This document shows, one piece after another, positions 25,897 to 26,286 of a stretch of 64,000 bases of DNA. Position 1 is the stretch's first letter, and the number at the start of each line of letters is the position of its first letter. Position numbers and translations under genes: made by a program. The notes under the pieces are model-generated. The model searched no databases, was not told the origin of the DNA, and saw nothing but the letters and a program-made list of their open reading frames with translations. Source of the DNA: Micromonospora sp. NBC_00421 (lineage in GTDB: Bacteria > Actinomycetota > Actinomycetes > Mycobacteriales > Micromonosporaceae); contig NZ_CP107929.1 in the NCBI RefSeq assembly GCF_036017915.1, forward strand, positions 4,530,001 to 4,594,000, in the 5' to 3' direction.

Positions 25897-26286
25897 TCAG
25901 CGGGCGGCGACGGCCACGCGCCGAGCCACCGCGGACGACGCGGTCGCCGCGGCGGCGGCGTGCTGGCTGACCCGGTGCTGGCTGATCGCCGCTGCGGCGG
26001 CGAAGCCGAACGCGCCACCGGCGACGGCCGGCAGGACGGTCACGCTGTCACCGTCGTTGAGCTTGGCGTCGAGCGCGCCCAGGAACCGGACGTCCTCGTC
26101 GTTGACGTAGACGTTGACGAACCGGTGCAGCGCGCCGGCGTCGGTGACCAGCCGGCCCTTCAGGCCGGCGTGCCGGGAGTCCAGGTCGGTGAGCAGGTCG
26201 CCCAGGGTGTCCCCGGCGCCCTCGACGACCTTCGCGCCGCCGGTGTAGCTGCGCAGGATGGTGGGGATGCGAACCTCGATGGCCAT
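25897..26286 (-). CDS. cysO: Sulfur-carrier protein CysO with a 38-residue C-terminal extension
   Basis: 129 aa from ATG 26286 (AAGGAG 6 nt upstream). Residues 1-91 are a complete ubiquitin-like Cys[13 protein letters not shown] at the start, [29 protein letters not shown] and a VLPAVAGG end with Gly90-Gly91. Known CysO proteins stop there, because the terminal Gly carboxylate is converted to thiocarboxylate. Here 38 more residues follow (nt 26013-25900), rich in Ala with ISQHRVSQH and an Arg/Val/Ala tail. The protein would need cleavage after Gly91 to work. The JAMM protease gene mec is 61 nt upstream. Readthrough of a former stop is the alternative. Confidence 0.88.

Follow-up and report, generated by a model that had tools for sequence, protein, structure and literature searches.

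The mec–cysO–cysM locus

The window, the whole stretch of 64,000 nucleotides of Micromonospora sp. NBC_00421 DNA that was analysed, includes a gene for the sulfur carrier CysO located between the genes mec and cysM. The product of this cysO gene runs past the Gly-Gly at which the carrier domain ends. The features of the locus, with their coordinates in the window, are as follows.

24920–25885, minus strand: cysM, cysteine synthase (PF00291, 225 bits; TIGR01136, 347 bits)
25897–26286, minus strand: cysO with a C-terminal extension, 129 amino acids (translation; PF02597, 62.2 bits)
26014–26286, minus strand: CysO beta-grasp domain, residues 1–91, ending VLPAVAGG (PF02597; alignment with 4n6e_B and 3dwg_C)
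26014–26019, minus strand: Gly90-Gly91, the expected thiocarboxylation site, with cleavage expected just after it (invariant in a 45-row alignment)
25984–26013, minus strand: conserved proximal tail, residues 92–101 (per-position counts and pN/pS)
25900–25983, minus strand: variable distal tail, SQHRVSQH...VAVAAR, residues 102–129 (length and sequence differ between species)
26348–26836, minus strand: mec, JAMM metallopeptidase, 162 amino acids, GTG start (Prok-JAB, PF14464, 105 bits)
26892–27392, minus strand: DUF2017/AosR-like gene adjoining mec (PF09438, 166 bits; the AosR model scored 69.8, below its cut-off of 260)

The mec gene ends 61 nt upstream of cysO, and cysM starts 11 nt past the cysO stop codon. 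The carrier was recognized as CysO by its ThiS/MoaD beta-grasp domain ending in Gly-Gly and by the location of its gene beside mec and cysM. Residues 5–91 match PF02597 above the cut-off of 22.5 bits, with the domain ending at LPAVAGG, and residues 1–91 align through the ends of the deposited chains 4n6e_B and 3dwg_C. The primary product lacks a free C-terminal Gly-Gly, as 38 further codons (nt 26013–25900) precede the TGA stop. The translation and the PF02597 match thus confirmed the sequence-only reading of this DNA, in which residues 1–91 had been taken as a complete CysO followed by 38 codons. With residues after Gly-Gly and an adjoining JAMM gene that has its complete set of metal and catalytic residues, the locus resembles those of capped carriers of the QbsE/PtmS2 kind. 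An AlphaFold prediction of the extended protein had a mean pLDDT of 63.1, with most of the tail below 50 and a possible helix at residues 94–105; its quality was too poor and the model was discarded as structural evidence.

Three ThiS-family carriers are encoded in the NBC_00421 genome, of which only CysO is tailed, and no second CysO match was found in it. The genome also includes MoeZ (G000:C1:6525388-6526089), which scored 740.7 bits with NF005902 (cut-off 647) and 62.1 bits with the rhodanese model PF00581.

Distribution and conservation of the CysO tail

A homologue search scored 8000 sequences. The best 120 of the 8000 all run past Gly-Gly, and those with an organism name belong to the Micromonosporaceae. 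At the DNA level, all 45 Micromonospora loci are tailed, with 18 to 50 residues after Gly-Gly, as are 35 of the 41 loci taken, one per genus, from other genera of the family, 27 of them with at least 10 tail residues; a CysO match was absent in 2 of the 43 other genera sampled. In the class outside the Micromonosporaceae, tails of 1 to 49 residues were found in 27 of the 39 families sampled (83 of 129 loci, a fraction that is not an unbiased rate because these loci were hand-picked from ranked lists, some since no stop showed). Considering all CysO loci whose DNA was examined, 163 of 215 are tailed, which makes a free Gly-Gly a poor gene-level criterion for CysO. A second search used a seven-row alignment in which six rows were tailless, and 80 of 573 loci were kept. 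The tail is present in 34 of the 35 Micromonosporaceae rows among them; the 35th, L301 from Micromonospora tarensis, has a CysO without the second Gly and a different downstream reading, apparently the result of a frame shift. The sequence-only reading had allowed for close relatives that stop at Gly-Gly, with a read-through in this strain alone, or for a sequencing error. The presence of the tail in the 45 Micromonospora loci, the 35 other genera and the 34 rows excludes both. The tailed CysO is not special to strain NBC_00421, and the observation is larger than first noted.

The tail consists of a conserved start and a drifting end. In all 45 Micromonospora loci, it begins with A, F or L, G, F, A and A, followed by nearly all A up to residue 9 and by I or L at residue 10, so that the conserved start can be written AFGFAAAAA(I/L). 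The alignment that had been proposed along with the sequence-only reading, of Micromonosporaceae and other actinobacteria, therefore showed an extension past Gly-Gly that is common and whose first ten residues are conserved in Micromonospora. The ten codons after Gly-Gly had a pN/pS of 0.021 (codon bootstrap 0.000–0.060), and the last 80 residues of the CysO body in the same 45 loci had 0.215, with some ten-codon blocks at 0. Because these loci had ranked first with a tailed query, which biases the sample towards conserved tails, the measurement was repeated on 24 Micromonospora loci obtained with the mostly tailless query; the ten codons had 0.072 versus 0.253 for the body. The pS values were 0.294 in the ten-codon tail versus 0.176 in the body, and 0.232 versus 0.196. 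Synonymous sites thus vary at least as much in the tail as in the body, which indicates that the constraint acts on the protein; an RNA-level cause is not favoured, since synonymous sites are free in the ten codons. The Gly-Gly and the residues preceding it are also highly constrained. Within Micromonospora, the ten tail residues are under purifying selection above that on CysO as a whole.

The same comparison across other genera gave a different result. In 25 genera selected by the pattern A-F/L-G/A, in which the first three tail positions are conserved by choice, pN/pS was 0.319 (0.188–0.447) for the ten residues, 0.345 for tail positions 4–10 and 0.400 for the body; in all 27 genera with at least 10 tail residues, the ten residues had 0.395 and the body 0.400. 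Outside Micromonospora, constraint on the ten residues does not exceed that on the CysO body. The distal tail had values of 0.78–1.23 by a crude ungapped measure, and it varies between species by repeats. No stops were found in the 1347 tail codons of the 45 Micromonospora loci, where 9.4 were expected after base shuffling; of the two other forward frames through these tails, one was likewise free of stops. An open frame by itself is weak evidence because of the high GC content; the tail is more than chance because ten codons keep their amino acids while synonymous sites vary.

A tree of 80 loci (Mec, CysO body and CysM, with Micromonospora thinned to 12) placed the motif in a clade of 44 rows (SH-aLRT 97), and parsimony required 5 changes in all. 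These results are consistent with a motif that arose once, at the root of the clade, and was later lost in some rows; the motif is lost, shortened or replaced in the relatives L062, L067, L072, L075, L076, L078 and L080. Tails outside the family had no common sequence by eye. Six of 43 tails with at least 3 residues and without the family motif themselves end in Gly-Gly (L101, L113, L133, L135, L146 and L260), as does the CysO tail of L305. In some of them the last strand is duplicated in tandem, so that ..LPAVAGG occurs two times, and these tails may supply a second usable carrier end.

A tail without function, in which Mec trims anything after Gly-Gly so that stop loss is tolerated and tails drift, would agree with the varied sequences and lengths seen in many families, with a distal part that looks neutral and repeat-expanded, with the loss of the motif in several genera, and with a motif constraint that across genera only equals that of the body. 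It is nonetheless unlikely, since drift does not explain ten residues that are clearly constrained at the protein level in both Micromonospora samples. Drift does fit the distal tail, and it may account for most tails in other families.

Mec and the proposed maturation of CysO

Residues E23, H79, H81, S89 and D92 of Mec, which we take to be the JAMM metal and catalytic motif, were invariant in 53 of 53 rows, and the NBC_00421 genome has no Prok-JAB match other than Mec. A comparison of tables by eye found a Mec match in 231 of the 239 genomes with a CysO match, and the other eight (G359, G370, G371, G397, G482, G510, G607 and G631) match CysO only weakly (E 8e-25 or worse). CysO and Mec are too tightly paired for co-occurrence to single out Mec as the maturase, and identification of the cleaving enzyme from tails without Mec is impossible because the CysO matches of Mec-free genomes are so weak. 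The Mec proteins of the Micromonosporaceae have a conserved C-terminal extension, AVQSYMFGQSPATVDYEC (window 26360–26413), past the point where most of the other Mec proteins examined stop. Co-evolution of this extension with the tail was rejected, as 2 of 70 motif rows lack the extension and 15 of the 16 family rows that have no motif possess it. Of 134 rows outside the motif-bearing set, 121 have Pro at residue 50 of Mec (window 26687–26689). In motif-bearing rows this residue is mostly Met or Thr, but Pro in L059, and it is Pro in the motif-less L062 and L075. With only two supported independent pairs, the way in which this residue tracks the tail is no more than suggestive.

Other carriers were used as controls. 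All 30 ThiS sequences stop at Gly-Gly, and the flanks fetched with them gave no mec match. Among 40 MoaD-like paralogues hand-picked from secondary matches, 34 end exactly at Gly-Gly, three have 1–10 extra residues and three are fusions; no significant mec match was found in their fetched flanks. The difference between CysO (163 of 215 tailed) and the controls (3 of 64, leaving out the fusions and 3 ThiS resolved later) had a Fisher p of 4e-26. Tails are largely confined to the mec-linked carrier. The fusions L184, L190 and L191 have an internal Gly-Gly followed by Ser or Ala and no mec match in the fetched flanks. The partner domain was checked in two of them, L184 and L190, and belongs to the thioesterase superfamily in both.

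The residue that follows Gly-Gly was restricted. Outside the Micromonosporaceae, 79 of the 83 tailed loci have A, S, M, G or C there, as do 46 of the 48 genera, with a background of 0.449 in the rest of the same tails (binomial 4e-14 by genus, genera not being fully independent); the other 4 loci have R or T. The second tail position had no such bias (28 of 69), and inside the Micromonosporaceae the first residue is one of the five in 80 of 80 loci. This narrow choice may be read as a cleavage signature. A tail of a single residue occurs in Geodermatophilaceae-type loci, 20 of 32 of which encode Gly-Gly-Cys followed by a stop (TGC then TGA); the 32 include one locus that carries the label Bacillus and clusters with Blastococcus. 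The genera concerned are Blastococcus, Geodermatophilus and Modestobacter, with none of four in Klenkia, and the loci are these:

L298, L303, L304, L308–L310, L312, L315–L317, L320, L324–L326, L328, L333, L336, L343, L344, L357: Gly-Gly-Cys-stop

As predicted from the genes, this product has a chain identical to that of the CysO-cysteine intermediate, an adduct that a passage of PMC3227635 reports to be hydrolysed by Mec, and it is a natural Mec test substrate. The trait required 6 changes on the tree; since it toggles, one-codon slippage may contribute.

These observations led us to propose that the tail is probably cut after Gly-Gly by Mec, at the bond that is hydrolysed in CysO-cysteine. 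In this pathway, cysO would encode a pro-form of the carrier, and Mec would cut the Gly91-Ala92 bond and release the 38-residue tail. The freed Gly91 would then be adenylated and sulfurated by MoeZ, CysM would join the sulfur to O-phosphoserine to form CysO-cysteine, and Mec would cut after Gly91 again to release cysteine. Mec would therefore act twice at one place, once for maturation of the carrier and then once per turnover. The ten conserved residues would act while attached, either in protease docking or by keeping the pro-form inert or soluble, and the distal tail would be free to drift. The sequence-only reading had suggested that Mec trims a pro-CysO. Its cleavage step is still inferred, and it stands as the best-supported reading because of the intact JAMM residues, the sole Prok-JAB match, the mec-linked tails, the narrow choice of residue after Gly-Gly and the Streptomyces precedent described below. 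Some observations count against it. Fast and complete cleavage would make a constraint on leaving residues unexpected, and a constraint on the leaving peptide would call for a role of its own. The ordinary constraint in other genera, the losses of the motif, the 4 of 83 tails that start with R or T and the tails on 3 of the 40 paralogues without a JAMM gene also weigh on that side, as do the Mec extension that is independent of the tail and the merely suggestive behaviour of Mec residue 50.

Another protease, through general C-terminal trimming or of the Clp type, could mature CysO and leave only CysO-cysteine to Mec. The tails outside the family, which share no sequence by eye, would suit such an enzyme, and the passage of PMC4326299 on cleavage of mycobacterial MoaX names no protease. 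This is improbable in view of the narrow residue choice after Gly-Gly, the near-restriction of tails to the mec-linked carrier and the result of the Streptomyces JAMM deletion. The constraint on the ten residues would be easier to understand if the tail were retained, with CysO in another role that does without thiocarboxylation, such as that of a scaffold or regulator. We consider this very unlikely, as Gly-Gly and its preceding residues are highly constrained, mec, cysO and cysM are kept together, MoeZ is present and the genome has no second CysO match. GC-rich frames are often open, but a sequencing error or spurious frame is hardly conceivable for a tail that turns up in dozens of separate genomes and is constrained at the codon level.

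Assuming maturation by Mec, the ten residues could be a dedicated pro-peptide. Pro-CysO and CysO-cysteine would compete for Mec, AFGFAAAAA(I/L) would set the rate of carrier release, and the availability of Mec would gate the amount of active carrier, so that proteolysis would act as a valve on the cysteine synthesis of the Micromonosporaceae. We put this forward tentatively, as a possibility that is more doubtful than the cleavage itself. The proteolytic switch that the sequence-only reading had added to its maturation step, and its suggestion that the tail may target or block the carrier, are likewise possibilities.

Comparison with known carrier systems

In the QbsE/QbsD and HcyS/HcyD systems, a JAMM protease is located beside a carrier with residues after Gly-Gly. 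The cysO locus is like them in this respect and unlike them in its tail, since we know of no long conserved tail in either system. It shares with the mycobacterial CysO-Mec-CysM-MoeZ pathway the carrier domain, the mec and cysM neighbours, MoeZ in the genome and the Gly-Gly at the domain end. The difference is that the deposited chains 3dwg_C and 4n6e_B stop at Gly-Gly, while here there are 38 residues more.

Cleavage after an internal Gly-Gly has been described in fusions. Passages of the respective articles report that cleavage of mycobacterial MoaX between Gly82 and Ser83 is needed for activity (PMC4326299) and that Deinococcus DR2607, a MoaD-MoaE protein, is cut by DRJAMM, leaving a C-terminal Gly (PMC8832034). 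These MoaD-MoaE fusions resemble the tailed CysO in that an internal Gly-Gly is freed by cleavage, and differ in that the leaving part is an enzyme subunit and not a short tail. Iyer et al. 2006 suggested a role for JAB proteins in freeing the carrier terminus of fusions, and listed an actinobacterial carrier-JAB-cysteine synthase-ClpS operon (PMC1779556). Among the literature matches listed, whose coverage leaves out most subscription journals, no title or passage dealt with the long Micromonosporaceae tail.

If maturation by Mec is correct, capped, protease-matured carriers would include, besides those with short caps, a form with a conserved pro-peptide that is spread over a family of antibiotic producers, and Mec would gain a second, earlier job. 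The results suggest a rule by which JAMM-linked carriers may run past Gly-Gly and unlinked ones usually stop there. In these organisms, a CysO gene is not to be taken for an error because it continues beyond Gly-Gly, and anyone producing the protein recombinantly has to choose its end point.

The closest precedent is the thioplatensimycin system of Streptomyces platensis (2018). PMC6006322 describes carriers capped after Gly-Gly (PtmS2 GG-MV, PtmS3 GG-C), the clustering of ptmS2 with the JAMM gene ptmS1 and a single activator, printed as 'MoaZ homolog'. Deletion of the JAMM gene abolished the thioacid products and deletion of ptmS2 alone did not; cleavage of the caps by PtmS1 was inferred there, and the role of QbsD is cited (PMC6006322). 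The CysO system shares with this one a carrier with residues after Gly-Gly, a clustered JAMM gene and one activator. The capping principle was thus already known from the short JAMM-linked caps described in Streptomyces. The PtmS2 and PtmS3 caps are two and one residues long, the Micromonospora tails have 18 to 50 with a conserved start, and it is this long CysO tail with its conserved start that is new compared with the known short caps.
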